A stretch of DNA of 64,000 nt from Conexibacter sp. DBS9H8. GTDB lineage: Bacteria > Actinomycetota > Thermoleophilia > Solirubrobacterales > Solirubrobacteraceae. A model generated the notes under the pieces. That model worked only from the letters and a program-made list of their open reading frames with translations. It searched no databases and had not been told where the DNA came from. The position numbers were made by a program, and so were the translations under genes. Positions within the stretch are counted from its first letter, which is position 1. Every line of letters begins with the position of its first letter. Of the stretch, positions 5,750 to 20,446 are shown one piece after another. The DNA lies in the NCBI RefSeq assembly GCF_023330685.1, contig NZ_CP097128.1:2976001-3040000 (forward strand). Reading direction: 5' to 3'.

Positions 5750-6498
5750 GCGAGCCGCTCCCCGATCAGGCGGGCGACGATGACGAGCGCGAACAGGCCG
5801 ACGAACCATGCGACGATTCCCTCCGGGATCGGGCCGATGTTGTAGATCCCCACACCGCCGGCGTTGTCGGGGTGGCGGGTCCACAGCACGTACCGGGCGA
5901 TCGAGTTGAGGTCATGCTGATCGAGCTGGGCAGTGCTGAAGTGCGGCATCACGTACGGGCCCATCCGGATCGCCTCGGCGACCTCATCCGCGGTCGCCTG
6001 TCCGAGGTCGGGCACCTGGGCGTTGATGGCGATTCCGCCGCGGCCGACGATCGAGTGGCATCCGGCGCAGTTCTCGTCAAACAGCTTGAAGCCGAGGGAG
6101 AGGCTGCCGGCGGCCGGATCCGCCGTCGGCGCGATTGGACCACCGCCGATCGCGCGGACGTACGCGGCAACCGACCGGATCTGGCTCGGGTCGAAGATCG
6201 GCGTCTCGCGGACCGGCTCGTCCTGCGGGTTGGCGAGCGGCATGCGTCCCGTCGACAGGTAGAACTTCACCGGGCCGGCGCCGACGCCGATCAGCGACGG
6301 CGCGACGCCGCGTCGCCCGCGCAGGTCATAGCCGTGGCAGGAGGCACAGTGGGCGTCAAAGAGCGACTCGCCCTGGGGAAGCGCCCCCGCGTGCGCACCG
6401 CTCGCGAGCCCGCACAGCAGCAACCCGGCGAGCGGAACGAGCGCGAGCACCCGAGCGACGGCGGAGAATCGGCGACGGTGGTGGCGTCGGCTTCTCAT
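5746..6498 (-). CDS. qcrC: diheme cytochrome c subunit of the bc complex (QcrC-like)
   Basis: 250 aa. An N-terminal signal/anchor helix (ARVLALVPLAGLLLCGLASG) is followed by two cytochrome c domains with heme-binding CASCHG and CAGCHS, and a C-terminal anchor helix (IVAWFVGLFALVIVARLIG). This is the layout of actinobacterial QcrC, which replaces soluble cytochrome c and wires the bc complex directly to the aa3 oxidase. It sits between ctaG and qcrA with 4-nt overlaps on both sides, so one transcript makes both halves of the supercomplex. Confidence 0.92.
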   Translation of the reverse strand: MRSRRHHRRRFSAVARVLALVPLAGLLLCGLASGAHAGALPQGESLFDAHCASCHGYDLRGRRGVAPSLIGVGAGPVKFYLSTGRMPLANPQDEPVRETPIFDPSQIRSVAAYVRAIGGGPIAPTADPAAGSLSLGFKLFDENCAGCHSIVGRGGIAINAQVPDLGQATADEVAEAIRMGPYVMPHFSTAQLDQHDLNSIARYVLWTRHPDNAGGVGIYNIGPIPEGIVAWFVGLFALVIVARLIGERLA

Positions 6499-7325
6499 CC
6501 CGCCACCTCCCCAGCGAGCTCGTGGCGCTCACGGGCCTGCTGGCGGCGCTCGGCGGCGAGCAGGGAGCGGACGACGGTGACGAGCCCAAGGAGCCCCATC
6601 ACGGCGGTGCCGAGCACCCACATGATCGCGCCGGCCTGCTGCTGGTCGGCGAGGGCGGAAATCCCCAGTGACCGGGCGGGCGCCGCATACAGCGGATAGA
6701 GCAGCGTCGGGTCGCGGTTGAGCCAGGCGCCGAACAGCGTCATCGGCACCATCGCGGCCGTCAGGTAGAGCAGGCGAGGCACCGGGCCGACCCGCCGCGG
6801 GTTCGGCGATCCCAGCAACGGCCACCAGAGGATCGTTCCGGCGAGCAGGTAGGCGACGTGCTGAGCGTCGTGGAGAAGCGGGTGCACGAGCGCCGCGTCG
6901 AAGATCACCGGCACGTGGGTGCCGAGCAGGACGACGGTGTAGATGACCAGACAGCGGATCGGCCCGAGCTGGTGACCGACCACCATCAGCGCCCGGCCGA
7001 CGCGCCGGCGGTACGGGCGCCCGAGGACCGCGAGAAGCAGTCGGCCCGGCATCCCCTCGAGCAGCAGCGGCGGCGCGAGGTCGAGGAGGAGGACGTGCTG
7101 GAGCATGTGCGCGGACAGGCGCTGTCCGTCTTGGGCCCCGATCCCCGAATCGAGCGCGACGACGATCGTGGCGAGCCCGGCGAGAAAGGCGAGCGTGTGA
7201 GCCGCCGGCCACGGTCGTGGGGTCCGGCGGACGGCGCCGAGGTAGACCGCCGCCGTGAGCGCACACAGGGCGCTCGGCACGGCGGCGAACTGCCAGTCAT
7301 GAACAAGGAGACCGACGAGGCTCAC
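6495..7325 (-). CDS. ctaG: cytochrome c oxidase assembly factor CtaG (caa3_CtaG family)
   Basis: 276 aa from a GTG at 7325 overlapping the upstream stop. About seven hydrophobic segments with conserved His residues are visible (SAHMLQHVLLLDLAPPLLLEGMPG; HPLLHDAQHVAYLLAGTILWWPLLG), the hallmark of the CtaG/DUF1404 family. The Bacillus homologue is needed to form active caa3 oxidase, probably through copper delivery to CuB. Position between the oxidase and bc genes supports the assembly role. Confidence 0.88.
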   Translation of the reverse strand: MSLVGLLVHDWQFAAVPSALCALTAAVYLGAVRRTPRPWPAAHTLAFLAGLATIVVALDSGIGAQDGQRLSAHMLQHVLLLDLAPPLLLEGMPGRLLLAVLGRPYRRRVGRALMVVGHQLGPIRCLVIYTVVLLGTHVPVIFDAALVHPLLHDAQHVAYLLAGTILWWPLLGSPNPRRVGPVPRLLYLTAAMVPMTLFGAWLNRDPTLLYPLYAAPARSLGISALADQQQAGAIMWVLGTAVMGLLGLVTVVRSLLAAERRQQARERHELAGEVAG

Positions 7326-7780
7326 GGCACCTCTCCCGTCGGGGCGCCACCGGCCCGGCCTGCGACACGCGGCGAAGCCTCGGCGCCGGCCCGCCGCTGG
7401 GCGGCGGCGCGCTCGGCCGCATGCTGGGCGCGGCGTTCGAGGACGAGCCGGGTGAGGCCGACGATCAGCACAGCGGCGCCGAAGTCGATCAGGAAGTGTC
7501 CGAAGACGACCCCGACGACGAGGGTGCTCAGGCCGATCGCGGCGAGCGCTGCGGCGGCGCTCGCGCGGACGATCGTCTCGGCCCCCCGAGCCCCCGGGGC
7601 ACCCCGCCGCAGTGCGTCCGGGTTGGCGAGCACCTGGAAGAGCACAAGGGTTCCGACGGCGAGGACCGCCGCGGCGAACGTCGCCGTCTGGATCAGATCC
7701 CCCGTCCAGATCGCGTTGAGCGTCCCCGTCGTCGTCAGGATCGCCAGCCAGATCAGGAGCGGTCGCACCGCACCGGTCAT
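7322..7780 (-). CDS. four-helix membrane protein in the oxidase operon, function unknown
   Basis: 152 aa. Four hydrophobic helices (about residues 6-25, 30-52, 72-92 and 96-112) precede an Ala/Arg-rich cytoplasmic tail of about 40 residues. It lies directly after ctaD (ATGA overlap) at the place where subunit III or IV genes usually occur. It is not a recognisable COX3: it is too short and has no COX3 motifs. It could be a small accessory subunit comparable to CtaF, or a proton/iron-handling helper. The function is inferred only from position. Confidence 0.65.
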   Translation of the reverse strand: MTGAVRPLLIWLAILTTTGTLNAIWTGDLIQTATFAAAVLAVGTLVLFQVLANPDALRRGAPGARGAETIVRASAAAALAAIGLSTLVVGVVFGHFLIDFGAAVLIVGLTRLVLERRAQHAAERAAAQRRAGAEASPRVAGRAGGAPTGEVP

Positions 7781-9375
7781 GGCACAGGCACCGGGTCGGA
7801 GGGGTCAGCGGCCGCCGCGGCGTCCGCGGCCTCCCGCAGGTCGAGCAGCGGCGCGTAACTGCGGATCGGCGGCAGCGGCTCGGTGAAGTTGAGCGCCGGC
7901 GGTGGCGAGCTCGTCGCCCACTCGAGCGTGTGCCCGAGCCACGGATCCGGACCGGCGAGCCGCGGACGACGCAGCGAGACGACGACGTTGAGGAGGAACA
8001 CGGCGACGGCGAGCGCGATCAGCCCGGCCCCGGCCGTCTCGAGCTGGTTGAGCCCCGCCCACCCGGGGTGGGTCGGGTAGCGGGCGATCCGCCGGGCCAT
8101 CCCGTCGGAGCCGAGGAAGAACATCGGCAGGAACGTGAGGTTGGTACCGACGATCAGGAGGCCGAGGTGGACCCGGCCGAGCCCCTCACGCAGCAGGCGT
8201 CCGGTCAGCTTCGGGAACCAGTGGTACACCCCGGCGAAGAAGCCGAAGATGCTGCCGGCGAACAGCGTGTAGTGGAAGTGGGCGACGACGATGTAGCTGC
8301 CGTAGGCGTTGTAGTCGAGCACCGGGGAGGCGAGGAAGATGCCCGACAGCCCGCCGATGAGGAACTGGATGAAGAAGGTGATCCCGAACAGGAACGCGCA
8401 GCGCGGGACGATCGACCCGCCGACGAGGGTGCCGACGAGGTCGAAGTACTCGATTCCGGCCGGGACGAGCAGCAGCGTCGAGGTGAACGCGAAGTACTGG
8501 TTGGTGACCCCGCCGGTGACGAACATGTGGTGCCCCCAGACGCTCATCGACAAGACGGAGAAGGCGAGCATCGAGGCGACGAACGCCGTGTAGCCGAACC
8601 ACCGCTTGTGCGCCCCGACGGCGATCGCCTCCGCCGCCGCCCCGAGGTAGGGGAAGAACATCACGTAGACGACCGGGTGGCCGAAGAACCAGAACAGGTC
8701 CTCGTAGTCGACCGCTCCGGCGAAGCCGGTGAAGATGTGGGCTCCGAGCCGGTCGACGTAGAGCAGGGCCATCACGAGCACCATCATCGGGAAGGCGCCG
8801 ATCACCATCAGGACGGAGACGAGCGCCGTCCAGGAGAACACGGGTAGGCGCATCATCGTCATCCCGGGTGCCCGCCGGCGGGCGACGGTCACCGCGATGC
8901 AGATCGCGATCAGGATCATCCCGAGGATCGCGAGGAGGACCCCGAGCACCCACAGGTCCTGGCCGACCCCCGGGGTGTATGAGCCCGTCGACAGCGGCGT
9001 GTAGGAGGTCCAGCCGTCCTGCCCGGGCCCGGACGCGGTGAACCACCCCGACTGCATCACGAGGCCGCCACACACCCACAGCCAGAACCCGCACAGGGCC
9101 GCCCGCGGCGCACTGAGCGTGCGGGCCCCGATCTGCAACGGGATCAGATACAGCGCGAGCGCGAGCGCCATCGGCGTCACGAACAGGAAGATCATCGTCG
9201 AGCCGTGCATCGTGAACAGCTCGTCGTAGGTGCCGTTGCTGAGCAGCTGGTTGTTCGGCTCGGCGAGCTGGGAGCGCATCAGCAGCGCGAACAGGCCACC
9301 GAGGAGGAAGTAGAACAGCGAGAGGACGCCGAGGTTGATCCCGATCGTCTTGTGGTCGGTGCTGATCAGCCTCAT
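7777..9375 (-). CDS. ctaD: heme-copper cytochrome c oxidase subunit I, with non-canonical proton-channel residues
   Basis: 532 aa, start at the ATG at 9375 overlapping the ctaC stop. Metal ligands are intact: H57 (low-spin heme), H233/H282/H283 (CuB), H366/H368 in VVAHFHYT (hemes), and the cross-linked Tyr Y237 in GHPVVY. Residues that normally define proton uptake differ. The Glu of GHPEVY is V235; neither the Tyr-Ser pair of A2-type enzymes nor a Glu is present. The D-channel entry Asp is T86 (GARTLSAP). The K-channel Lys of PTGIK is E309 (PAGIEYFD). The protein is therefore a recognisable oxidase core with altered proton routes. Reduces O2 to water using electrons from QcrC/CtaC. Confidence 0.92.
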   Translation of the reverse strand: MRLISTDHKTIGINLGVLSLFYFLLGGLFALLMRSQLAEPNNQLLSNGTYDELFTMHGSTMIFLFVTPMALALALYLIPLQIGARTLSAPRAALCGFWLWVCGGLVMQSGWFTASGPGQDGWTSYTPLSTGSYTPGVGQDLWVLGVLLAILGMILIAICIAVTVARRRAPGMTMMRLPVFSWTALVSVLMVIGAFPMMVLVMALLYVDRLGAHIFTGFAGAVDYEDLFWFFGHPVVYVMFFPYLGAAAEAIAVGAHKRWFGYTAFVASMLAFSVLSMSVWGHHMFVTGGVTNQYFAFTSTLLLVPAGIEYFDLVGTLVGGSIVPRCAFLFGITFFIQFLIGGLSGIFLASPVLDYNAYGSYIVVAHFHYTLFAGSIFGFFAGVYHWFPKLTGRLLREGLGRVHLGLLIVGTNLTFLPMFFLGSDGMARRIARYPTHPGWAGLNQLETAGAGLIALAVAVFLLNVVVSLRRPRLAGPDPWLGHTLEWATSSPPPALNFTEPLPPIRSYAPLLDLREAADAAAAADPSDPVPVP

Positions 9376-10034
9376 ACCGGCCCCGCCCCGTGTCGGGCGA
9401 GCCAACGATCAAAGCGGCGGTCGGGCAGCACCCGCACGCCGAAGACCATCTCGGAGTGGAAGATCCCGCAGTACTCGCTGCAGGCCCCGCTGAAGCTGCC
9501 GGTGCGGTCGAAGTCGAGCGTGACCCGCTCCACGGTGCCGGGCATCGCGTCCCGCTTGAAGGCGAGCTGGGGAATCCAGAATCCGTGGATGACGTCTCGA
9601 GAGGTGAGGTTGAAGCGGACGGGCTCGTCGACGGGAACGACGAGTGGCGCATCACCGACGGCACCGCTGACGTGGGTGATCCCGTGACCGGCGTAACGGA
9701 AGGTCCACTCCCACCGGCTCGCGATCACGTCGACGGTGAGGGCCGGGCGCTCCCGCGCCGACGCGGTGTCGACGAGATGCTCGGCGCGGAAGGTCACGTC
9801 GAGCAGGACCGCGGCGATGCAGAGCAGCACGACGGCGTAGGCGAGCTCGAGCCGGTTGGCTTCGTTGTGGCCCGCGAGCCGGTGCCGGCGCCCGTCCCGG
9901 CGCCGGAAGCGCACCGTCACGACGATGATCGTGACGGTGAAGAACCCGAACACGCCGATCCCGATCGGCACGTAGATGCCGAACACCCAGTCATAGACGT
10001 GCCGAGTGTCGACAATGGCGGTCGGGACGGGCAT
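9372..10034 (-). CDS. ctaC: cytochrome c oxidase subunit II (CuA subunit)
   Basis: 220 aa starting at the ATG at 10034, first gene of the operon. Two transmembrane helices (about 18-42 and 63-80) are followed by a cupredoxin domain. CuA ligands are visible: H150, then C185, E187, C189, H193 and M196 in CSEYCGIFHSEM. There is no lipobox and no fused cytochrome c domain; the nearby QcrC presumably donates electrons. Upstream lie a TATACA hexamer at 10050-10045 (minus strand) and a perfect-armed dyad at 10082-10095, likely control elements. Confidence 0.93.
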   Translation of the reverse strand: MPVPTAIVDTRHVYDWVFGIYVPIGIGVFGFFTVTIIVVTVRFRRRDGRRHRLAGHNEANRLELAYAVVLLCIAAVLLDVTFRAEHLVDTASARERPALTVDVIASRWEWTFRYAGHGITHVSGAVGDAPLVVPVDEPVRFNLTSRDVIHGFWIPQLAFKRDAMPGTVERVTLDFDRTGSFSGACSEYCGIFHSEMVFGVRVLPDRRFDRWLARHGAGPV

Positions 10035-10081
10035 CGCTGGGCGGTGTATATCCCGTCGTTCTGGCCGGGCGAACCCGACGT

Positions 10082-10095
10082 GTTCGCACGCGAAC
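10082..10095. promoter_or_regulatory. candidate operator GTTCGC-AC-GCGAAC between ctaC and the Crp-like gene
   Basis: 14-bp dyad with perfect 6-bp arms. It ends exactly 47 nt before the ctaC ATG and 72 nt before the Crp-like ATG. The same dyad, differing only in the two central bases, occurs at 16030-16043, also exactly 47 nt before the first ORF of the formate dehydrogenase operon. The GTTCG-N4-CGAAC geometry equals that of FNR sites (TTGAT-N4-ATCAA). Being an operator of the adjacent regulator is an inference. Confidence 0.65.
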
Positions 10096-10167
10096 GGTCG
10101 GGTCCGAGGGCGACGCCGAGCCCGCCCGGGGGGTTTGGCCAGGGCCCGCCGGGGGCAAGGGAGAGCC

Positions 10168-11139
10168 ATGTCCGCCCTGTCTGTCTCCCCCGGCCCGGCG
10201 TCGGCGACGGCCGAAGTTCCCGCTCCCGCGGAGGCGCCGACCCCGGTGGTTCCCGACAGCCCGTCCACGCCGCTGGTCCCCGACCCCGGTACGCCCGCCG
10301 ATCCTGCGGTCCCGAGCACGGTGCCCGGGCCCGCCGAGCCGGCCGAGCCGATCGCCCCACCCGAGCCGGGTCCGGAGATCCCGCCGGAGCCGCGCCAGAG
10401 CGCCACCGTTCGCCTGCTCGACATCGACCCCGACCTCGGCGCCGGCTTGGACGCGGCGATGTTCGCGCGGGCGCGGGAGCTGCTCCGCGCCCCGGTGTTC
10501 GAGGTCGGCCGCGGCGCACGGACGCTGCCCGAGTGTGACTCCGACAGCGCCTTCGGTCTGCTCGTCCTCAGCGGTCTGCTCGGGCGGCGCCTCCGCGTCT
10601 GCCAGGCCCACGCGACCGAGCTGCTCGGACCGGGCGACATCCTCCGTCCCTGGGACCCGTTCGATTCGCTCCAGAGCGTGCCTCCCGAAGTCGACTGGCG
10701 GAGCCTGACCCCGGTCCGGGTCGCCATCCTCGATCAGTCGGTGACGCGGATCATCGGCCGCCGTCACGAGCTGCTGCTCGCCTTCTCGGGCCGCCTGCTG
10801 CACCGCGTCCGGACCGGCACCTATCTGCGTGCGGTGAGCAACCTCACCCGGGTCGACGAACGGGTTCTCGTCAGCCTGTGGCACCTCGCCAGCCGCTGGG
10901 GCAACGTCACCCCAGACGGGGTGCTGCTCCCCTTCCGGCTCACCCACGAGGTCCTCGGCGAGGTCGTCGGCGCCCAGCGGCCGTCGGTCACCCTCGCGCT
11001 CAGCCGACTGCGCCGCCTCGGGATCGTGGAGCGGCTCAGTGACGGCCGTCTCGTCCTCTGCGGCGAGGCCCCCGCCGGCCCCGGCACCCGGATCCGGGGC
11101 GGGGAGCTGCGCCGCCTCGACGACCGTGCGGTCGCCTGA
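10168..11139 (+). CDS. Crp/Fnr-family transcriptional regulator with a Pro-rich N-terminus
   Basis: 323 aa, start chosen at the ATG at 10168, preceded by a GGGAGAG-type ribosome site; the reading from 10006 lacks support. Residues about 8-75 are a Pro/Ala/Glu-rich linker. Residues about 78-185 form a degenerate cNMP-like sensor without a clear cyclic-nucleotide phosphate-binding cassette or an iron-sulfur Cys cluster. Residues about 225-298 form a Crp-type winged helix-turn-helix with recognition segment AQRPSVTLALSRLRR. It is divergent from the oxidase operon, and one copy of the dyad lies upstream, suggesting autoregulation and control of respiration. The signal it senses is unknown. Confidence 0.82.
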   Translation: MSALSVSPGPASATAEVPAPAEAPTPVVPDSPSTPLVPDPGTPADPAVPSTVPGPAEPAEPIAPPEPGPEIPPEPRQSATVRLLDIDPDLGAGLDAAMFARARELLRAPVFEVGRGARTLPECDSDSAFGLLVLSGLLGRRLRVCQAHATELLGPGDILRPWDPFDSLQSVPPEVDWRSLTPVRVAILDQSVTRIIGRRHELLLAFSGRLLHRVRTGTYLRAVSNLTRVDERVLVSLWHLASRWGNVTPDGVLLPFRLTHEVLGEVVGAQRPSVTLALSRLRRLGIVERLSDGRLVLCGEAPAGPGTRIRGGELRRLDDRAVA

Positions 11140-11143
11140 ATCG

Positions 11144-11857
11144 GTGGCCGGCGCGGCAGACACCGCCTCAGCACCCGCGCCCCCGTCCGCGACGGAGGCG
11201 GGTGCCCAAACTCGGGTGATGCTGCGGCCGATCGCGACGCCGTTCCCGGTCGGCCTCGGTGCCCTCGCGACCGCAAGCCTGCTCGCCTCGGGCCTCGAGC
11301 TGGGCTGGTTCGCCAACCGGGACACGCCCACCGTCGCGGTCGCGCTGATCGCGTTCTGCTTTCCCCTGCAGTTCCTCGCCTCGATCTTCGGCTTCCTTGG
11401 TCGGGACACGGCGGCGGCGACGAGCTTCGGGATCCAGGCGGGGGCCTGGCTCGTGATCGGCGTATCGCTGCTGCTCTCCCCGCCCGGCCGGCTCAGTCCG
11501 CCGCTCGGCGTGCTGCTGCTCGCCGCCGCCGTGTGGGTCGCCCTCGCCGCCGGCGGTGCCGCGGGCGCCAAGCTCGTTCCCGCGCTCGTCCTGTTCGCCG
11601 TCGCGGTGCGCTTCCTGCTCACCGGGCTCTACGAGCTCGGTCTCGGTGTCGGGGTCGAGGACGCCGGGGCGATCGTCGGCCTCGCCGTTGCCCTGTCGGC
11701 CGCCTACGCCGCCCTCGCTCTCGAGCTCGAGAACGCGCGCCGCCACACCGTGCTGCCGCTGCTGCGCCGCAACCGCGGATTAGAGGCAATGGAGGCCGGC
11801 CTTGCCGTCCAGAACGCCGACGTCGCCCACGAGGCGGGGACCCGCGAGCAGCTCTGA
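11144..11857 (+). CDS. GPR1/FUN34/YaaH (SatP)-like membrane protein
   Basis: About 237 aa from a GTG at 11144; GTG 11126 (overlapping the previous stop) and ATG 11219 are alternatives. Six hydrophobic segments follow an Ala/Pro-rich lead. The pattern of a first helix after a Pro-containing motif (IATPFPVGLGALATASLLAS), then FPLQFLASIFGFLGRDTAAATSFG, resembles acetate/succinate transporters of the SatP family, whose signature region is NPAPLGL near the first helix. That motif is only loosely kept. It follows the Crp-like gene closely and may be coexpressed. Transport of a small carboxylate is an inference. Confidence 0.55.
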   Translation: MAGAADTASAPAPPSATEAGAQTRVMLRPIATPFPVGLGALATASLLASGLELGWFANRDTPTVAVALIAFCFPLQFLASIFGFLGRDTAAATSFGIQAGAWLVIGVSLLLSPPGRLSPPLGVLLLAAAVWVALAAGGAAGAKLVPALVLFAVAVRFLLTGLYELGLGVGVEDAGAIVGLAVALSAAYAALALELENARRHTVLPLLRRNRGLEAMEAGLAVQNADVAHEAGTREQL

Positions 11858-12043
11858 CCCCGCTGATCGTGGCCGCCCACCTGACCGCCGCCCGCTGGGT
11901 GGCTGAGCGCGAGGGTGGCGGCGTCACAGACCACGGCCACCGAGGCCCACGGCGGTTGGGCGGCAGCCACGAACACGCTTGACGGCGGCGTGATCCTCAC
12001 CGTCTGCTTCAGCGGTGCCGCAGCCGACGCCACCCCGAAGTCA

Positions 12044-13711
12044 TCACGCACTGATGCCCTGTGCGACCCGGCCGCTCGCGCGGGTCCGCGCAGGCGGACG
12101 TTCGAGCACGGACACCCGAACCACCGCCCCGTCCTCCCAGGGGCGAAGAAACTGTCCGCCCGTCACACTGCGCGGGCCGTCGAGCCGCTGCTCGACAGCC
12201 GCGAGAACGGCAAACGCCATCTCTCCCAGGGATCGCAGCGGTTGATGGCGGTTCTGTCGGGTGCCCAGATGGCTTTCGGCGAGCGCGTCGAGCCCGCACC
12301 GCTCAAGACTGTCGATCAGAAGCGCGATCTCAACCCCGTAGCCGACGGGGAACGGAAGCTCCTCCAGCAGGTGGCGCCGCCCCGCGAACTCCCCGGCGAG
12401 CGGCTGCACGAACCCGGCGAGCAGCGGGAAATGCAGGTTGAGCAGCGGGCGGGCCATCAGCTCGGTCACCCGCCCTCCCTCCCCAGCCAGGGTGACCGTC
12501 CCCGTGCGGAAGGGTCGGTCGAAGGCACCTTTGACGAGCATGAGCTCCGGCGCCTGGAGCAACGGGCCGATCAACCCGAGCAGATGACCGGGGTCCGGGT
12601 CAGAGGTGTCCGCGTCCAGGAAGCAGACGATCTCCCCGGCCGTGACCTGGAGGGCGCGCCACATCGCATCGCCCTTGCCGTGTGCGGGACCGAGGTCCGG
12701 ACACAGTTCGTCCTGCTGGAGCACCCGGGCACCGCTCGCCTCCGCGATGGCGGCGGTGCCGTCCCCCGAGGCGGCGTCGACGACGACGACGTCGTCGATG
12801 AGGCCGGCCTCCCGGACAGGTCGGACCGTCGTCTCAAGGACGGAGCCGACGGTGGCAGCGCACTCCTTGGCCGGAACGATCACGGTGATGGCGGGACTGC
12901 CGGCGGCCGCCCACCTCGCCGTGAGCGACCGAAGGTCAAAGTCCGCCGCGACGAACCGGCGGCGTTCACGCCAGGCGGAGACCGCGAGGTCGACCGAGAG
13001 GCCGCGCCTGGCGCGGCCGTCGGTGCGTGCGGCCGTCTGCACACGTACATCGGCCGCACGGAGGATCGGGATTCCGTTGGCGCGCACCTGCTCGGCGAAC
13101 GCCTCATCCTCGAGCGCGGGCGTCATCGCGAGGCCGCCGACCCGCCGGTAGGCCTCGACGCTGACCCCGAGGGACGCCCCGGCGAAGTGGTGGTGCCCAG
13201 CGTCAGGATCGATCCGGGCGACCTCCCGCATCCGACGCCGCGCATCGTGCTCCCGCCGTCGCAGGACGCCGGCCGGCAGCCCCGCGGAGCTTTCGTGGTC
13301 GAGTTCGATCCGTCCGGCGATCACCTCGGCGCCGTTGGCGAGGTGCGCGAGTTGGTGTGCGAGCCACTCACGGGACGGCACCGAGTCCGCGTCGGTGGTG
13401 GCGATCAGGCCGCGGTGCGCTCCCGCGGCCTCCAGCCGCTCCGCGGCGGCCTCCATCCCGAGGCGGCGGGCCGGTCCCGTGCCCGCGCCCGGTCCTTGCA
13501 GCACGGTGAGGCGCAGTCCGAGCCGCGCCGCGCCTGCGGTCGCGAACTCGACGGTGCGATCGACGCAGCCGTCGGCCACGAGGATCACCTCGAACTGAGT
13601 CGGCGCGATCGTCTGGACCGCCAGGGCCGCGAGGCAGTCACCGATCGTGGCCTCCTCATCACGGGCCGGGATGACAACCACGCTGAGCGGCGCGTCCGGG
13701 GCGCGAGTCAT
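12044..13711 (-). CDS. bifunctional glycosyltransferase: GT2 domain fused to GpgS-like glucosyltransferase
   Basis: 555 aa. Residues about 8-240 are a GT-A fold GT2 transferase (VVVIPARDEEATIGDCL, nucleotide/metal motif D107-A-D109 in TTDADS). Residues about 273-555 match glucosyl-3-phosphoglycerate synthase: VIVPAKECAATVGSVL, GKGDAMWRAL, metal motif D366-A-D368 in LDADTSDPDPGH, and PVGYGVEIALLID. GpgS transfers glucose to 3-phosphoglycerate, the first step toward glucosylglycerate and polymethylated lipopolysaccharides. Fusion of the two in one chain is unusual. It is the last gene of a four-gene operon (ATGA overlap with the methyltransferase). Acceptors are not predictable. Confidence 0.85.
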   Translation of the reverse strand: MTRAPDAPLSVVVIPARDEEATIGDCLAALAVQTIAPTQFEVILVADGCVDRTVEFATAGAARLGLRLTVLQGPGAGTGPARRLGMEAAAERLEAAGAHRGLIATTDADSVPSREWLAHQLAHLANGAEVIAGRIELDHESSAGLPAGVLRRREHDARRRMREVARIDPDAGHHHFAGASLGVSVEAYRRVGGLAMTPALEDEAFAEQVRANGIPILRAADVRVQTAARTDGRARRGLSVDLAVSAWRERRRFVAADFDLRSLTARWAAAGSPAITVIVPAKECAATVGSVLETTVRPVREAGLIDDVVVVDAASGDGTAAIAEASGARVLQQDELCPDLGPAHGKGDAMWRALQVTAGEIVCFLDADTSDPDPGHLLGLIGPLLQAPELMLVKGAFDRPFRTGTVTLAGEGGRVTELMARPLLNLHFPLLAGFVQPLAGEFAGRRHLLEELPFPVGYGVEIALLIDSLERCGLDALAESHLGTRQNRHQPLRSLGEMAFAVLAAVEQRLDGPRSVTGGQFLRPWEDGAVVRVSVLERPPARTRASGRVAQGISA

Positions 13712-14262
13712 CGGCGCTCCAGCACGTGCAACAGATAGTCGGCGGTGGACCGGTCCGCGGTGGTCGCCAGCCCGGGGAGAGCCCGCGCCCGCGCATGGAC
13801 GTACGCGGCGGTGAGTGGCCGCTCGGTCCCTGGCGGCCGCCAGTGCACGAGGACCAGGCGCGCGATCATCACCTCGTCGATCCTCCGCAGCGTCTCCTCG
13901 AGCGCGCGCGAATCGAGGTAGTACAGGACTTCGGAGGCGACGACGAGCTCGTACGGTCCGTCCGGAATCGCGTCGGGTATCGCGCCAAGGCGCACGTCGA
14001 CCTGCGGATGGGCGCGCAGGCGCCGGCGCGCGTTGCGAACCGCCGTCGGCGCGAAGTCGACCGTGGTGAGGGCCTGGCAGCGTTCGGCCAACCGGGCGCT
14101 GAACACGCCCACCGACCCGCCGAGTTCGAGTGCGGCGGTGAACGGACCACGTCCGCAGGCGCTCAGCGTCGCGTCGTACTTGGTCCGCTCATAGTCACTG
14201 TCCGCATAGGCCCACGGATCGGGGTTTGAGCGGTAGCGGCGCTCGAAGTCATCGGCGGTCAC
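13708..14262 (-). CDS. NodS-like SAM-dependent methyltransferase
   Basis: 184 aa, GTG at 14262 overlapping the upstream stop. The N-terminal DPWAYADSDYERTKYDATL and the SAM-binding LELGGSVGVFSARLAERC fit the NodS family (nodulation N-methyltransferase type) of class I methyltransferases; VVASEVLYYL is the post-II region. NodS itself N-methylates deacetylated chito-oligosaccharides. Here the partners are a NodB-type deacetylase and glycosyltransferases, so methylation of an amino sugar or sugar is a reasonable inference. Cytoplasmic. Confidence 0.85.
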   Translation of the reverse strand: MTADDFERRYRSNPDPWAYADSDYERTKYDATLSACGRGPFTAALELGGSVGVFSARLAERCQALTTVDFAPTAVRNARRRLRAHPQVDVRLGAIPDAIPDGPYELVVASEVLYYLDSRALEETLRRIDEVMIARLVLVHWRPPGTERPLTAAYVHARARALPGLATTADRSTADYLLHVLERR

Positions 14263-15356
14263 GCGGGCCTCCGCAAGTCGCTGAGCAGCTCGGCGCCCAC
14301 CTCGGCGACACTCGCGTCGAGTCGATGTTGGAGCAGGAACAGATCGAGGTCCCGACGGGCGCGGTCAAGATCGGTTCCCGTCGCAAACGGATGTGACCCG
14401 CACGCGCGAGCGGCCTCGGACAGGATCGTTCGGCAGCCGTCGGCGATCGCCACGCGCGCGTGCACGGCAAGGTGGGGCAGGTCGAGAGCGACCGCGTCCA
14501 TCGCCGCCGCGGCGCGCTCGAGCCAGGCGGTGATGGTCTGCGATGCGGTGGCCATCCGCCCCGCCGCAAGGTCCTCGAGCGGGCCGCTGACCGGGCGGGC
14601 GGCCAGTTCGCCGAGGGCGCTGCGACAGGCGCGATCGGCCATTCCCGCCCAACTCGCGGCGGTGCGGAGCGCATCTCGACTCAGCCACGGAAACTGCGCC
14701 AGCGATCCCGGCCCGCCAAAGCGGGCGATGATCGGCGCATCGTCGAAGACGACTCGGTGCGAGGCCGACGCCCGCAGTCCCGCGGACCGGTACCAGCGCC
14801 GATCAACCCTCACTGCGTGCGCGTCGGTGACGTCGATCCAGACGGCGACCGGCTCCGTGCAGGCGGGGTCGCGCGCGAGTACGAGCGCGCGCTGCAGACC
14901 GCCAGCCCCCGAGCAGAATGTCTTGACGCCCGACAGCGTCCCGTCCGGACCGACGGTCGCGGGAGGGCCCTCCCCGGGACGGGGGTTTCCGCCCCAGACC
15001 CCGGCGAGGAGGTCCCCGCGGTGAACGGCCGCAAGTTCTCGCTCGCGCACATCCGCGGGGGCCTGAACGGCCAGGCGCTCGACTGCGTTGAGATGGCCGT
15101 CGAAGATCCGGCCGACCGAGCCGTCCGCCGCCGCGACGGCACGCACGAGTGCGAGTTCCCCAGACGCCGGCGGCCGCTCGGGTCCCGGCGTCGCGTTCAC
15201 CTCAAGGGCACCGGCGTCCCGCAGATGCGCGATCGCAGCTTCCGGAAACGGCGGGTCACACGCGCGGTCGCGCTCCGCCGCTGAGGCGGCGATCGCCTCG
15301 AGTGCGGCACCGAGCTTCCCCTCGTCGAGAACGGTGGACGGGGCCACCATGCTCAC
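14259..15356 (-). CDS. acyl-CoA dehydrogenase-like flavoprotein
   Basis: 365 aa from a GTG at 15356 overlapping the upstream stop; an ATG two codons later is possible. The overall plan is that of acyl-CoA dehydrogenases: an N-terminal helical part, a middle segment (GVWGGNPRPGEGPPATV...LSGVKTFCSGAGGLQRALV), and C-terminal helices with RTAASWAGMADRACRSAL. The catalytic Glu is not obvious and the middle domain is short, so the substrate may not be a normal acyl-CoA. Embedded between a deacetylase and a methyltransferase, it may oxidise a carrier-bound or sugar-linked group. Function inferred. Confidence 0.75.
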   Translation of the reverse strand: MSMVAPSTVLDEGKLGAALEAIAASAAERDRACDPPFPEAAIAHLRDAGALEVNATPGPERPPASGELALVRAVAAADGSVGRIFDGHLNAVERLAVQAPADVRERELAAVHRGDLLAGVWGGNPRPGEGPPATVGPDGTLSGVKTFCSGAGGLQRALVLARDPACTEPVAVWIDVTDAHAVRVDRRWYRSAGLRASASHRVVFDDAPIIARFGGPGSLAQFPWLSRDALRTAASWAGMADRACRSALGELAARPVSGPLEDLAAGRMATASQTITAWLERAAAAMDAVALDLPHLAVHARVAIADGCRTILSEAARACGSHPFATGTDLDRARRDLDLFLLQHRLDASVAEVGAELLSDLRRPA

Positions 15357-15925
15357 GTGAGCGCCTCGAGGGTGAGCCCGCGGGCCCTGGCGTGGGTCGC
15401 CACCGAGGCGACGTACCGAAGCGTCTCCCCCGCGCCCTCCCGCCGCGCCCCCGGCCCGATCCCGTCGTGGGCGAGCACGACCGCCCCGGCGGTGATCTCG
15501 TCACGGGTCGCCGCGAACATCCTCTCGGCGCTGTCGCCCCGCCAGTCGTGGGAATCGACGGTCCAGCCAACGATCTCGAGCCCGTGTTCGACGGCGACCG
15601 GCTCCGTCCACGGTGCCGTCTCTCCCCAGGGAGTTCGCCAGAGTTTCGGTCGGACTCCGATCGCCTTGAGCCGTCCGAGTGCCGTCGCGGTGTCGCGCCG
15701 CAGCCAGTCCGCGTCACGCTCGCGGTGGCGGACATGCTCGTCACAGTGCAGTCCGACCGTATGCCCGTCGGCGGCCATCCGCGCGAGCAGCCCAGGATGG
15801 GCGGCGGCCCGAGGCGCGATCACAAAGAACGTCCCGGTGACCTTCAGAGCGGCGAGCACGTCCAGAAGCGCCCGCGTCCAGTGGGCGTCGGGGCCGTCGT
15901 CGAAGGTGAGGGCGACCCCGTCCAT
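15353..15925 (-). CDS. polysaccharide deacetylase (NodB homology domain)
   Basis: 190 aa, first gene of the four-gene operon. Carbohydrate esterase 4 motifs: TFDDGPD (catalytic base and metal Asp), TGTFFV, the metal-binding HxxxH in GLHCDEHVRH, RTPWGE (motif 3), and VVLAHDGIG (motif 5). These enzymes remove N- or O-acetyl groups from sugars. There is no signal peptide, so it would act in the cytoplasm on a biosynthetic intermediate rather than on wall polymer, consistent with its methyltransferase and glycosyltransferase partners. It is divergent from the formate dehydrogenase operon. Confidence 0.88.
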   Translation of the reverse strand: MDGVALTFDDGPDAHWTRALLDVLAALKVTGTFFVIAPRAAAHPGLLARMAADGHTVGLHCDEHVRHRERDADWLRRDTATALGRLKAIGVRPKLWRTPWGETAPWTEPVAVEHGLEIVGWTVDSHDWRGDSAERMFAATRDEITAGAVVLAHDGIGPGARREGAGETLRYVASVATHARARGLTLEALT

Positions 15926-16029
15926 GCGCTTCTTCCAGTACCCCGATCGCTCACCTGCGAATCGGTCGGTCCGCTCACGTGCACATCGGTCGCACCCTCA
16001 TGCTCGTGTGGCTGACCATGGACGTGAAG

Positions 16030-16043
16030 GTTCGCATGCGAAC
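16030..16043. promoter_or_regulatory. candidate operator GTTCGCATGCGAAC upstream of the formate dehydrogenase operon
   Basis: Perfect 14-bp palindrome in the divergent region between the deacetylase operon (start 15925) and the fdh operon (start 16091). 47 nt separate it from the 16091 ATG, the same distance as the related site has from ctaC. It sits 104 nt from the deacetylase start. It could serve either direction. Binding by the Crp-like protein at 10168 is inferred from the repeated motif and spacing. Confidence 0.65.
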
Positions 16044-16090
16044 ACTCGCGGTGTGGGGACCGGACCGCCCGGGCAAGATGGCGTCTGGAG

Positions 16091-16393
16091 ATGTCCCTGC
16101 CCGACCGTATCCGCGTTCTGCTTGAGGAGGGCCTGTCCTATCCGTCGGTCGCTGACCGGCTCGGGATCTCCCCGGGACTCGCCTTCCTGCTCGCCACGGG
16201 CCGCCCCGTCGATGACGGCACCTCCGGAACGACGGAGGGCCTGTGCAGATCGCCCACCCCGTCAGCCAGCCCGCGGGAGCTCAGTCCGCAGGAGCTGATC
16301 GGTGCCGGGGCCTCAGTGCCTGAGCGGCACTCCGAGATCCTCGAGTGGGTCGCCGCCCGGGCCGCCCGGGAGCTCACCTCGCCGCATGCCTGA
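16091..16393 (+). CDS. small HTH-like protein leading the formate dehydrogenase operon
   Basis: 100 aa; the ATG is preceded by a CTGGAG ribosome site. Residues about 4-35 (DRIRVLLEEGLSYPSVADRL followed by GISPGLAFLLATG) look like a helix-turn-helix; the rest is a Ser/Pro-rich linker and a C-terminal helix. It overlaps the start of the catalytic subunit gene by 8 nt, so translation is probably coupled. No named family recognised. It could be a local regulator or a maturation helper. Confidence 0.6.
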   Translation: MSLPDRIRVLLEEGLSYPSVADRLGISPGLAFLLATGRPVDDGTSGTTEGLCRSPTPSASPRELSPQELIGAGASVPERHSEILEWVAARAARELTSPHA

Positions 16394-19300
16394 GCGTCGC
16401 CTGATCACGAGCTGGCCGCTGCTGCGCCAACTCCGCGGTGAGGACCCGAGCGGGCGCGGAGCCGCCGTCCGCTCAGCGGGTACGGACGCGATTCGGGCCC
16501 GGACGGTCGAGGCGGACCGGGTCGTCAAATCCGTCTGCCCCTACTGTGCGGTCGGCTGTGCCCAGAACGTGTTCGTCAAGGACGGTCGTGTCGTCCAGGT
16601 CGAGGGGGATCCGGACGCCCCGCACAGCCGGGGCCGGCTCTGTCCCAAGGGGTCGGCGACCCTCCAGCTGACGACCGGCTCCGCGCGTGAGCAGTATGTC
16701 CTCTACCGCCGGCCCTACGGCTCGGACTGGGAGCGCCTCGACCTCGAGACCGCGATGGACATGGTCGCCGACCGGATCGTCGACTCCCGGCGTCGGGGCT
16801 GGGAGTGGGAGGTCGACTCGGTCCGCACGCGGCGGTGCATGAGCATCGCCGCGCTCGGCGGGGCGACCCTCGACAATGAGGAGAACTACCTGATCAAGAA
16901 GCTGCTGACCGCCCTCGGGGTGATCCAGGTCGAGAACCAGGCCCGGGTCTGTCACAGCTCGACGGTCGTCGGTCTCGGCACGTCCTTCGGGCGTGGCGCC
17001 TCCAGCACGCTCCCGGCGGACCTCCAGCACTCGGATCTGATCGTGCTCGAAGGCTCGAACATGGCCGAAGCCCATCCGGTCGCCTTCCAGTGGGTGATGG
17101 AGGCCAAGGCCCGGGGGGCGACGGTCGTCCACGTCGACCCGCACTACAGTCGCACGAGCGCCCTCGCGGACGTGTTCGTGCCGATCCGCGCCGGTTCCGA
17201 CATCGCCTTCCTCGGCGGGATCATCAACTACGTCATCGCGAACGAGCTCGACTTTCGCGAGTACGTCCTCGCGTACACGAACGCGCCGACGATCGTCGGG
17301 GAGGAGTTCCAGGACGTGGGGGCCGACGGCGTGTTCTCCGGCTTCGACCCCGAAACGGGCGCCTATGACCCCTCGAGCTGGCAGTACGAGGGCGCGTTCG
17401 TCGCGGCGGCCTCCGGCCAACGCGATCAGGAGGGCAACCTCGCCCCGCTGGACAGCGAACGGTCAGCCAACGCCTCGGAGGGCGGCCGGGGCGATCCGAC
17501 ACTCGACCTCACCCTCACCCACCCGCGCTGTGTCTGGCAGATCCTCAAGCGCCACTACGCCGAGTACACGCCCGAGATGGTCGAGCGGACCTGCGGAATC
17601 CCCCAGGACCTGTTCCTTACGGTGTGCCGACTGTTCGTCGAGAACTCGGGCCGGGAGCGCACCGCCGCGTTCGTGCACGGGGTCGGCTGGACCCAGCATA
17701 CGATCGGCTCCCAGTACATCCGAGCCGCCTCGATCCTGCAGCTGCTGCTCGGCAACATGGGCCGCCCCGGCGGCGGGGTGATGGCGATGCGCGGCCACGC
17801 GTCGATCCAGGGTTCGAGTGACATCCCGACCCTGTTCGACACCCTGCCGGGGTACATCCCGATGCCCCACGCCCACGCCCACGGGGACCTCGACGCGTTC
17901 GTTTCCGGTGACGCGGCCAAGCGTGGATTTTGGGGGAACATGCGGGCATACATGGTGAGCCTGCTGAAGGCGTGGTACGGGGCGACCGCGACGGCGGAGA
18001 ACGACTTCTGCTTTGACTATCTCCCCCGCCTCACCGGCAGCCACAGTACCTACGACACGGTGATGGAGCAGCTCGCGGGCCGCATCGAGGGGTACCTGCT
18101 GTTGGGCCAGAACCCGGCGGTCGGGTCGGCGAACTCGCGGATGCAGCGGTTCGGGATGGCCAACTGCAAGTGGCTCGTCGTCCGGGACTTCTCCCTGATC
18201 GAGTCGGCGACCTGGTGGAAGGATGGCCCCGAGATCGCCAGCGGGGAGATGCGCACCGAGGACATCGAGACCGAGGTGTTCTTCTTTCCCGCGGCCGCGC
18301 ACACCGAGAAGGAGGGGACCTTCACCAACACCCAACGGATGGTCCAGTGGCATGAGAAGGCGATCGACCCCGCCGCCGACCGGCGCAGCGACCTGTGGTT
18401 CATCTACCACCTCGGGCGCCGCCTGCGTGAGCGGCTCGCCGGCTCCGCCGATGCGGCTGACCGTCCGCTGCTCGATCTCACCTGGGACTACCCGCTGGCG
18501 AGCGGGACAAATGAGCCGAGCGCCGAGGCGGTGCTCGCGGAGATCAACGGCTGGAACGCCGACGGGGAGATGCTGTCCTCCTACACGGAACTGGCCGCGG
18601 ACGGATCGACGGCGAGCGGGTGCTGGATCTACTGCGGCGCCTACGCCGACGGGGTCAACCAGACGGCTCGCCGGACCCCCGGCTCGGAGCAGAACTGGAC
18701 GGGTTCCCAGTGGGCGTGGGCGTGGCCGGCGAACCGCCGGATCCTCTACAACCGCGCGTCCGCCGACCCGGAGGGACGTCCGTGGTCAGAGCGCAAGGCG
18801 CTCGTGTGGTGGGACGCCGCGGAGGGCCGCTGGGTCGGGCACGACACGCCGGACTTCGAGGCCGACAAACCCCCGAGCTACCGGCCGCCGGAGGGGGCGA
18901 CGGGTCCGGCGGCGATCGCGGGAACTGACCCGTTCATCATGCAGGCCGACGGTCGCGGCTGGCTGTACGCCCCCGCCGGCGTCGGCGACGGCCCGCTTCC
19001 GGTGCACTACGAGCCCCAGGATTCGCCGCTGCCCAACCGGTTGCACCGCCGCCAGCGCAATCCTGCCCGCCAGCTGTACCCCCACCCGAACAACCGTTAT
19101 CACCCCGATCCGGGCACCCCGGGCAGTGAGGTGTTCCCCTTCGCGGTCACCACCTACCGGCTGACCGAGCACTTCACCGCCGGTGGGATGAGTCGGTGGA
19201 CCCCCTATCTCGCCGAACTGCAGCCCGAGTTCTTCTGTGAGGTGTCCCCCGAACTCGCTGGCGAGCGGGGCCTCGAGCACGGCGGCTGGGCGACGCTCGT

Positions 19301-19610
19301 CTCCGCCCGCGGGGTGATCGAGGCACGGGTGATGGTGACTGACCGGATGACCCCGCTGCGGTTGGGTGACCGGATCGTGCACACCATCGGCCTTCCCTAC
19401 CACTGGGGGCCGAACGGGTATGCCCGCGGGGACTCGATGAACGAACTGTCCTCGATGGCGCTGGATCCGAGTTCCCACATCCAGGAGGTCAAGGCCCTGA
19501 CCGTCGACATCCAGCCCGGGCGCCGGCCCCGGGGCCCCGCCCGCCTCGCGCTTGTGCAGGAGTACCGCACCCGCGCCGGAATCACGGAAACGACGGGGAT
19601 GGCCCGGTGA
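16386..19610 (+). CDS. fdh: formate dehydrogenase catalytic (molybdopterin, FeS) subunit, cysteine form
   Basis: 1074 aa, start at the ATG at 16386. An N-terminal 4Fe-4S motif C51-x2-C54-x3-C58...C86 is followed by the bis-MGD molybdopterin oxidoreductase domains. The active-site residue that is selenocysteine in FdnG/FdhF enzymes is Cys189 here (NQARVCHSSTVVG), followed by the conserved His190; no in-frame TGA is used. Other signatures: GSNMAEAHPVAFQWVMEAK, GNMGRPGGGV, and a C-terminal dinucleotide-binding domain. No twin-arginine leader is visible, so the enzyme probably faces the cytoplasm. It oxidises formate to CO2 and passes electrons to the downstream FeS subunit. Confidence 0.93.
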   Translation: MPERRLITSWPLLRQLRGEDPSGRGAAVRSAGTDAIRARTVEADRVVKSVCPYCAVGCAQNVFVKDGRVVQVEGDPDAPHSRGRLCPKGSATLQLTTGSAREQYVLYRRPYGSDWERLDLETAMDMVADRIVDSRRRGWEWEVDSVRTRRCMSIAALGGATLDNEENYLIKKLLTALGVIQVENQARVCHSSTVVGLGTSFGRGASSTLPADLQHSDLIVLEGSNMAEAHPVAFQWVMEAKARGATVVHVDPHYSRTSALADVFVPIRAGSDIAFLGGIINYVIANELDFREYVLAYTNAPTIVGEEFQDVGADGVFSGFDPETGAYDPSSWQYEGAFVAAASGQRDQEGNLAPLDSERSANASEGGRGDPTLDLTLTHPRCVWQILKRHYAEYTPEMVERTCGIPQDLFLTVCRLFVENSGRERTAAFVHGVGWTQHTIGSQYIRAASILQLLLGNMGRPGGGVMAMRGHASIQGSSDIPTLFDTLPGYIPMPHAHAHGDLDAFVSGDAAKRGFWGNMRAYMVSLLKAWYGATATAENDFCFDYLPRLTGSHSTYDTVMEQLAGRIEGYLLLGQNPAVGSANSRMQRFGMANCKWLVVRDFSLIESATWWKDGPEIASGEMRTEDIETEVFFFPAAAHTEKEGTFTNTQRMVQWHEKAIDPAADRRSDLWFIYHLGRRLRERLAGSADAADRPLLDLTWDYPLASGTNEPSAEAVLAEINGWNADGEMLSSYTELAADGSTASGCWIYCGAYADGVNQTARRTPGSEQNWTGSQWAWAWPANRRILYNRASADPEGRPWSERKALVWWDAAEGRWVGHDTPDFEADKPPSYRPPEGATGPAAIAGTDPFIMQADGRGWLYAPAGVGDGPLPVHYEPQDSPLPNRLHRRQRNPARQLYPHPNNRYHPDPGTPGSEVFPFAVTTYRLTEHFTAGGMSRWTPYLAELQPEFFCEVSPELAGERGLEHGGWATLVSARGVIEARVMVTDRMTPLRLGDRIVHTIGLPYHWGPNGYARGDSMNELSSMALDPSSHIQEVKALTVDIQPGRRPRGPARLALVQEYRTRAGITETTGMAR

Positions 19611-20446
19611 GCGTTCCCGACGCCACGGAGATTCCCCGGATGGGGTTCTTCACCGACACGTCCGTGTGCATCGGCTGCAAGGCCTGTGAGGTCGCCTGCA
19701 AGGAGTGGAACGGGGTGCCTGAGGACGGTCTCGTCTGGACCGGTCACTCACACGACAACTCCCAGGGCCTGAGCGCCGATACCTGGCGCCACGTCGCCTT
19801 CATCGAGCAGCGCGCCACCGTCGGTCACCATCAGCCGAACCTCCAGCGCACGGGAGCTTCCGACGGCGACACCGATCAGGCGTTCCGCTGGCTGATGGCC
19901 TCTGATGTCTGCAAGCACTGCACGCACGCCGCCTGCCTCGACGTCTGTCCGACCGGGGCGATCTTCCGCAGCGAGTTCGGCACCGTCGTCGTGCAGGCCG
20001 ACGTCTGCAACGGCTGTGGCTACTGCGTTCCCGCCTGCCCCTACGGCGTCATCGACAAGCGGCCCGATGACGGCCGCGTGTTCAAGTGCACCCTCTGCTA
20101 TGACCGCCTGCAGGTCGGGCAGGAGCCGGCGTGCGCGAAGGCGTGCCCGACGGACTCGATCCAGTTCGGGGTCCTCGACGACCTCCGTGAGCGCGCGACC
20201 CTGCGGGTCGAGCGCCTGCACGCCGACGGGGTGACCGAGGCCCGTCTCTACGGTCACGACCCGTCCGACGGCGTCGGCGGGGACGGGGCGTTCTTCCTGC
20301 TGCTGGACGAACCCGAGGTCTACGGGCTTCCGCCCGCTCCGGTCGTCACGACCGCCGACCTGCCCGCGATGTGGCGCCACAGTGCGCTCGCGGCGGCCGG
20401 GCTGCTGCTGATCGGCCTGCTCTCCGCCGCGGGAGCGCGCCGGTGA
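19607..20446 (+). CDS. formate dehydrogenase iron-sulfur (beta) subunit
   Basis: 279 aa from a GTG overlapping the previous stop (GTGA). Four ferredoxin-like clusters are visible: CIGCKACEVACKEW, CKHCTHAACLDVC, CNGCGYCVPACPYG, and CTLCYDRLQVGQEPACAKACP. A C-terminal hydrophobic helix (HSALAAAGLLLIGLLSAAG) can anchor it to the membrane, as in FdnH. It relays electrons from the molybdenum site to the NrfD-type membrane partner. It also overlaps the next gene by 4 nt. Confidence 0.93.
   Translation: MSVPDATEIPRMGFFTDTSVCIGCKACEVACKEWNGVPEDGLVWTGHSHDNSQGLSADTWRHVAFIEQRATVGHHQPNLQRTGASDGDTDQAFRWLMASDVCKHCTHAACLDVCPTGAIFRSEFGTVVVQADVCNGCGYCVPACPYGVIDKRPDDGRVFKCTLCYDRLQVGQEPACAKACPTDSIQFGVLDDLRERATLRVERLHADGVTEARLYGHDPSDGVGGDGAFFLLLDEPEVYGLPPAPVVTTADLPAMWRHSALAAAGLLLIGLLSAAGARR

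Follow-up and report, generated by a model that had tools for sequence, protein, structure and literature searches.

The DNA considered here is a 64,000-nt stretch of the genome of Conexibacter sp. DBS9H8 (contig NZ_CP097128.1, positions 2,976,001 to 3,040,000; hereafter the window), which contains two short palindromes in front of respiratory operons. Dyad 1 reads GTTCGCACGCGAAC (10082-10095) and dyad 2 reads GTTCGCATGCGAAC (16030-16043). Both are probably operators, with the core GTTCG-N4-CGAAC, of the Crp/Fnr-type regulator that is encoded next to dyad 1. As a homodimer, this protein would bind dyad 1, between its own gene and the ctaC operon, as well as dyad 2, before the formate dehydrogenase (fdh) operon. 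Binding at dyad 1 would result in autoregulation; the two sites together would allow the regulator to set jointly the genes for formate oxidation and those for oxygen respiration by a bc1/aa3-type chain. The argument is one of sequence comparison: symmetric sites co-occur with crp-like genes in permuted-arm, gap and helix counts.

Dyad 1 lies between two divergent units, the leftward ctaC operon and the rightward crp-like gene. It is 47 nt from the ATG of ctaC (minus strand, 10034) and 72 nt from that of the crp-like gene (10168). Dyad 2 precedes a rightward operon consisting of a gene for 100 amino acids, fdhA, fdhB and an nrfD-like gene, and is also 47 nt from the first ATG (16091); this belongs to the 100-residue gene, with the ATG of fdhA following at 16386. 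The ctaC and fdh blocks thus stand apart and point away from each other, with one dyad at each (Table 1). An earlier note on this DNA had reported perfect 6-bp arms at both places, a common 47-nt distance to the first start codon of an operon, and a Crp/Fnr-type gene beyond dyad 1. All of this is borne out, with the qualification that fdhA itself is further off; a Crp helix-turn-helix (HTH) domain is detected in the product of the neighbouring gene.

A caveat concerns the start codons. If upstream starts are taken, dyad 1 falls within open frames on both strands, and it is classed as 'inside' by the gene caller. In the case of CtaC, alignments start at query residues 1-6 for 12 of the 13 best relatives, in keeping with a start at 10034. 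For the crp-like gene, the nine best relatives' alignments begin at query residues 46-82, with no sign of conserved coding upstream, in a search whose query started at 10168 and in which conserved coding further upstream could not have appeared.

The exact pattern GTTCGC-NN-GCGAAC has just two copies in the single-contig genome of 3,636,119 bases, namely dyads 1 and 2 (reversed-pattern control: 1). They are 5,948 bp apart, and a random pair would be that near with P 0.003. The core GTTCG-N4-CGAAC has 16 copies (control 8); 13 of the other 14 lie inside called coding open reading frames (ORFs), coding and intergenic calls throughout being those of our own simple gene caller. The remaining copy is between uvrB and uvrA (C1:2750290-2750303; locus L283). 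The window holds 630 six-bp dyads with a spacer of 0-10, 50 intergenic dyads and 62 repeated sets, among which GTTCGC-NN-GCGAAC alone has two intergenic copies. The earlier note had likewise seen no other intergenic copy in the window. Because the gene caller overlooked the crp gene here, its span was treated as intergenic, and the test errs on the conservative side. By rough estimate, about 0.3 matching intergenic pairs would arise by chance. Taken alone, the pair is suggestive of more than chance; the case is carried by comparative evidence.

Sixty relatives were searched for the Crp-like protein, CtaC and formate dehydrogenase (FDH), and upstream regions were taken (300 nt for crp, 400 nt for fdh and 300 nt for ctaC), with the dyad defined solely from the Conexibacter genome. 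The crp set consists of the 90 best places of a longer list, weaker places being left out, and the strain's own paralog at C1:111922 (n=91). With at most one mismatch and the strain itself excluded, the dyad precedes 7 of 125 genes (crp 4/88, fdh 2/25, ctaC 1/12). For 90 permuted-arm controls, the mean is 0.3 genes, and the next best arm reaches 3. The single ctaC match (GTTCACCGGCGAAC, in genome G025) was dropped as coding sequence, being part of the 3' end of nrfD, where it encodes a Gly-Ser-Pro-Ala peptide common to homologs (judged by eye). The six remaining recurrences are at crp-like and fdh genes. Those at fdh comprise an exact site in G009, 49 nt from its ATG by our count, and a site with one mismatch in G010. 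Those at crp-like genes comprise an exact and a one-mismatch dyad in tandem in G011, and sites with one mismatch each in G030, G010 and G019.

The spacing of the half-sites provides a second line of evidence. Within 250 nt upstream of the 91 Crp-like genes, 5-bp palindromes that are perfect and have GT-starting arms peak at a gap of 4, with 13 sites at 10 genes (10 sites at 8 genes without the Conexibacter genome). The other ten gaps between 0 and 10 have 0-5 sites each, 1.48 being expected per gap. Furthermore, of the twelve specified positions, the two innermost account for four of the five mismatches in relatives (P 0.003), which argues for a 5-4-5 rather than a 6-2-6 site. Both results support the FNR-type geometry, 5-bp half-sites around a 4-bp spacer, that had been read from the two dyads alone.

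The third line of evidence links operator and recognition helix. The gap-4 sites are mainly of two kinds, GTTCG-N4-CGAAC and GTAAC-N4-GTTAC. The former occur with helices of the type A-[Q/R/H]-R-P-[S/T]-V-T, the latter with A-E-R-P-S-[V/I]-[S/T]-H, and in three genes in tandem about 25 bp apart. These classes were noticed post hoc in the same data rather than predicted, and were then recounted over all 91 genes: among the eight genes with A-E-R-P-S-x-[S/T]-H helices, five have the GTAAC kind (at most one mismatch) and none the GTTCG kind, and one of the other three, in G009, carries a similar palindrome, GTAAT-N4-ATTAC; among the remaining 83, six have the GTTCG kind and one the GTAAC kind. 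Strain DBS9H8 itself has both, the GTTCG kind at the window gene and the GTAAC kind at the paralog. Upstream of this second crp-like gene (C1:111922-112629; locus L230), the palindrome GTAACCCGGGTTAC stands twice in identical form, at a distance of 25 bp. Of the 91 helices, 86 (that of the window gene among them) have an Arg-Pro pair, which is invariant across 28 aligned homologs; we take its columns to be positions 180 and 181 of CRP. In the published CRP/FNR code, Arg180 is paired with G at motif position 3, while the exchange of Glu181 for Pro in HcpR2 is paired with GTAACnnnnGTTAC (PMC1274295). The operator letters change with the recognition helix in a manner that fits this code.

The dyads might instead be operators of another regulator, either a different Crp paralog or an unrelated palindrome-binding factor. 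The genome does encode three more matches to the regulator protein, and several helix types occur with GTTCG-type sites. Such an assignment is nevertheless unlikely, given that dyad 1 adjoins the window crp gene, that sites of this kind reappear in front of relatives' crp-like genes, and that the paralog at C1:111922 has a different candidate operator in its two GTAACCCGGGTTAC copies.

Gene order in relatives also bears on a common control of the two operons. In G023, fdhA, fdhB, nrfD and ctaC are consecutive on one strand, as judged from ORFs and Pfam matches, and 7 of relatives' 12 ctaC loci have an nrfD homolog immediately before that gene (G007, G010, G016, G018, G022, G023 and G025). With fdh and oxidase genes as neighbours in relatives, shared control makes sense.

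The assignment of the dyads to the adjacent regulator is complicated by a number of observations that weigh against it, most of them to do with sparse conservation. Across the 13 ctaC loci, no match with at most one mismatch exists beyond the strain's own site and the dropped one in G025. Only 3 of 26 fdh loci carry the site, the strain's own included. In an additional sample of 42 fdh loci from the family, one does (G154, one mismatch); the sample took 22 and 20 from two lists, 7 other places of the first being left out, and four of the 42 had less than 800 nt upstream, one of them just 4 nt. G013, the closest by FDH and CtaC among 61 genomes, has the dyad at neither fdh nor ctaC; there, ctaC and fdh are apart, with two other genes and the homolog of the 100-residue gene between them. 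The seven nearest Crp homologs (48-53% identity; G013, G021, G006, G012, G017, G020 and G024) have no site, nor is one recognisable at the majority of the 91 crp-like genes, and the helices that go with GTTCG-type sites are not uniform. Among the matches listed for 146 family genomes, inspection by eye found no exact site outside the genus near any listed Crp or FDH place. Two related loci from a search of named genomes, both in Thermoleophilaceae metagenome-assembled genomes, have no exact or one-mismatch dyad. When up to two mismatches are allowed, the window holds 5 sites against 7.4 expected and so shows no excess. Of the exact dyads sampled in the relatives (27 of 42, one per genome), 24 are in coding sequence. 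Conservation is thus sparse and nearly confined to one genus, so the circuit would be young or quickly rewired. What carries the case is a handful of recurrences in or near one genus, together with the pairing of helix and operator.

Some of these points would also suit an accidental match between two unrelated palindromes: the window has as many as 62 repeated dyad sets, conservation is sparse, there is no excess at two mismatches, and the exact dyad is not over-represented in the 60 relatives, where it occurs 42 times, or about 0.7 times per genome, against 52 for the reversed control (sums over a per-genome table). Such a coincidence is very unlikely in view of the sole set with two intergenic copies, the mere two copies in the genome, the recurrence at fdh and crp in excess of permuted-arm controls, and the gap-4 peak. 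The same relatives' counts (control level, 24 of 27 sampled sites coding) led to the rejection of a genome-wide regulon.

Candidate promoters can be placed relative to the dyads. In S. coelicolor, homologs of SigB use promoters near GTTTAA-N12-14-GGG(A/T)A(A/T) (PMC8346170). The candidate in front of the crp-like gene is of this type (Table 1). That of the fdh operon fits a relaxed pattern found at 14 places in the window, and that of ctaC fits neither scanned pattern, the fifth base of its -10 element being T. Both of the latter start 7 nt past the dyad and end 14 nt short of the ATG, a placement that would explain why both dyads stand 47 nt from the start codon. At 14 of 68 fdh loci, a promoter of the GTTT-N14-18-GGG type is found no more than 150 nt from the match; as controls, the 42 kb lying further upstream gave 2 sites and the reverse strand of the near regions gave 1. 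The resemblance to SigB-family promoters of Streptomyces and Bacillus extends from crp to these 14 fdh loci, as GTTT-N12-14-GGG(A/T)A(A/T)-type sequences. The genome encodes a sigma factor of the SigB/F/G type (TIGR02980, over the curated cut-off), and SigB-type promoters are candidates for serving crp and fdh, presumably with such a factor. At ctaC and fdh, the dyad lies 7 nt before the candidate -35 element and its centre would be at about -46, a position that could be suited to contact with RNA polymerase and hence to activation.

The proximity of dyads and promoters raises another reading, in which the left arm GTTCGC is itself a GTTT-like -35 element of a SigB-type promoter and the palindrome is incidental. 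In two relatives, a two-mismatch dyad does overlap such a promoter (GTTTGC-N14-GGGCAC in G001 and GTTTTC-N13-GGGTAG in G050). The strain's own sites have no GGG-type -10 element at the right distance, and the separate candidates begin 7 nt after the dyad; the right arm and the gap-4 rule would be left unexplained. This reading is accordingly highly improbable.

The regulator preferred here as the binding protein has a Crp-type winged HTH (Pfam HTH_Crp_2, PF13545; E 1.2e-8, 35.3 bits, cut-off 27), the only domain recognised by Pfam. Its AlphaFold model (predicted local distance difference test score 87.8) has a beta-roll sensor, a long dimer helix and a C-terminal HTH, a fold as in the CRP/FNR superfamily, with Mycobacterium tuberculosis (Mtb) CRP, GlxR and NtcA as top PDB matches (E 2e-12 to 7e-12). 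No cyclic-nucleotide-binding Pfam family is found at E 1e-3, and no column that is invariant, or almost so, in 28 aligned homologs holds a cysteine, the conserved Fe-S ligand of FNR; neither cyclic AMP (cAMP) nor an FNR-type Fe-S cluster is therefore indicated. The protein begins with a Pro/Ala-rich extension of about 80 residues (window 10168-10400). The candidate -10 box ends 9 nt before the ATG at 10168, so the true start codon may lie downstream. The end of the gene is overlapped on the same strand by a GPR1/FUN34/YaaH (acetate permease-like) ORF (11039-11857), which may be co-transcribed with it. Elsewhere, in G049 (contig C73, locus L170), two crp-like genes (C73:3962-4639 and 9748-10452) flank fdhA, the second being divergent from it.

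Among known systems, the actinobacterial cAMP-dependent CRPs (Mtb CRP and GlxR) provide the best fold matches and are among the best sequence matches, but identity is 20-24% over the fold matches, and in the present regulator Pfam recognises no domain for cyclic nucleotides at E 1e-3. Their site, TGTGA-N6-TCACA, differs from GTTCG-N4-CGAAC. HcpR2-type CRP/FNR regulators share Pro in place of Glu181, by an alignment that we take as given, and a GT-starting 5-4-5 palindrome (GTAACnnnnGTTAC); they differ in their hcp/nitric oxide targets and in their GTAAC-N4-GTTAC operator, whereas the operator proposed here is GTTCG-N4-CGAAC, before fdh and an oxidase operon (PMC1274295). The same paper describes two cyanobacterial HcpR genes divergent from their target, with no other similar site in the genome, which is a precedent for a tiny local circuit. 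FixK2 and NnrR of Bradyrhizobium are similar in having a 14-bp palindrome, in that the genes with a box include a cytochrome oxidase operon, and in that nnrR and nnrS have one box common to a CRP/FNR gene and its divergent neighbour; they differ in their TTG[A/C]-N6-[T/G]CAA box and their denitrification and cbb3 targets (PMC6710368).

Table 1. Coordinates of the dyads, candidate promoters and genes in the window.
Feature	Position	Strand	Remarks
Dyad 1	10082..10095		GTTCG-CACG-CGAAC; candidate operator, ctaC/crp-like intergenic region; similar sites before relatives' crp-like genes
Dyad 2	16030..16043		GTTCG-CATG-CGAAC; candidate operator, fdh operon; recurs at fdh of G009 and G010
Candidate SigB-type promoter, crp-like gene	10133..10158	+	GTTTGG-N14-GGGCAA; sole GTTTNN-N14-GGGHA in the 64-kb window, both strands
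Weaker candidate promoter, fdh operon	16051..16076	+	GTGTGG-N14-GGGCAA
Weak candidate promoter, ctaC	10049..10074	-	GTTCGC-N14-GGGATA
Crp/Fnr-type regulator gene	10168..11139	+	HTH_Crp_2; conserved part ~10405-11080; Pro-rich N-terminal extension
ctaC, cytochrome c oxidase subunit II	9372..10034	-	First gene of oxidase operon; COX2; CoxB above cut-off
ctaD, cytochrome c oxidase subunit I	7777..9405	-	COX1, E 2.8e-117
CtaG-like oxidase assembly gene	6495..7325	-	caa3_CtaG, E 2.7e-15, below cut-off
QcrC-like diheme cytochrome c subunit, bc1 complex	5746..6498	-	NF050122, 192 bits (cut-off 200)
QcrA-like Rieske iron-sulfur subunit	4673..5884	-	Pfam QcrA_N and Rieske, over cut-off
QcrB-like cytochrome b subunit	3177..4676	-	Pfam Cytochrome_B, over cut-off
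100-residue gene, first of fdh operon	16091..16393	+	Homologs in six relatives, likewise preceding fdhA
fdhA, formate dehydrogenase alpha subunit	16386..19610	+	NF041513, 1903 bits (cut-off 1400); no in-frame stop
fdhB, iron-sulfur subunit	19607..20446	+	FDH-beta best match, below cut-off
NrfD-like membrane subunit	20371..21444	+	Pfam NrfD, E 1.7e-11

The leftward operon, in the order ctaC, ctaD, a small gene, CtaG-like, QcrC-like, Rieske and cytochrome b, looks like a whole bc1/aa3 chain. Two more CtaC matches are encoded elsewhere, so this is probably not the sole oxidase of the organism. At E 1e-3, neither Pfam nor NCBIfam has a model that matches the 100-residue protein of the fdh operon. 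A search of 67 upstream regions turned up homologs in six (G013, G083, G130, G136, G140 and G143), all before an fdhA without TGA, and the gene is thus probably real. FDH has no stop in the matched frame in strain DBS9H8, G013, G065, G081, G083, G120, G130, G136, G140, G143 and G145; the other strong FDH homologs among the matches listed have one in-frame TGA at that place. This presumably encodes selenocysteine, and would indicate a selenocysteine-to-cysteine split inside one bacterial family. A similar-looking small divergent gene stands opposite fdhA in G009, G016, G022, G023 and G033 (by eye).

The earlier note had suggested a regulator linking formate oxidation with terminal oxidase expression. 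Comparison upholds this in large part, though short of proof: an operator of FNR-type geometry tied to the Crp-like gene, to ctaC and to fdh is supported by the genome scan, the relatives, the gap of 4, the covariation with the helix and the gene order, and is held back by the sparse conservation, the lack of the site in G013 and the coding nature of the one ctaC match in a relative. Control of respiration by CRP/FNR proteins is already known. The operator sequence is apparently new: GTTCG-N4-CGAAC was not found in literature text searches, most subscription papers lying outside their scope. To our knowledge, gene regulation in Thermoleophilia has been little studied, and searches of the literature on it gave nothing on point.

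A more far-reaching picture can be put forward tentatively. FDH and the bc1/aa3-type chain would form a self-contained formate-to-oxygen module with its own autoregulated regulator of FNR geometry and with SigB-type stress promoters. The regulator would belong to a much-duplicated Thermoleophilia subfamily in which two helix residues, presumably 179 and 185 in CRP numbering, switch the operator between GTTCG and GTAAC and so separate the circuits of paralogs. The analysis provides a concrete candidate operator, a likely regulator and three target promoters, and places formate oxidation together with an oxygen-respiration operon in a single proposed circuit. The two-class pairing of helix and operator may offer a route to operator prediction for many paralogous Crp-like genes; if the two-residue switch is true, it would be the means by which paralogs in one cell keep their circuits separate.

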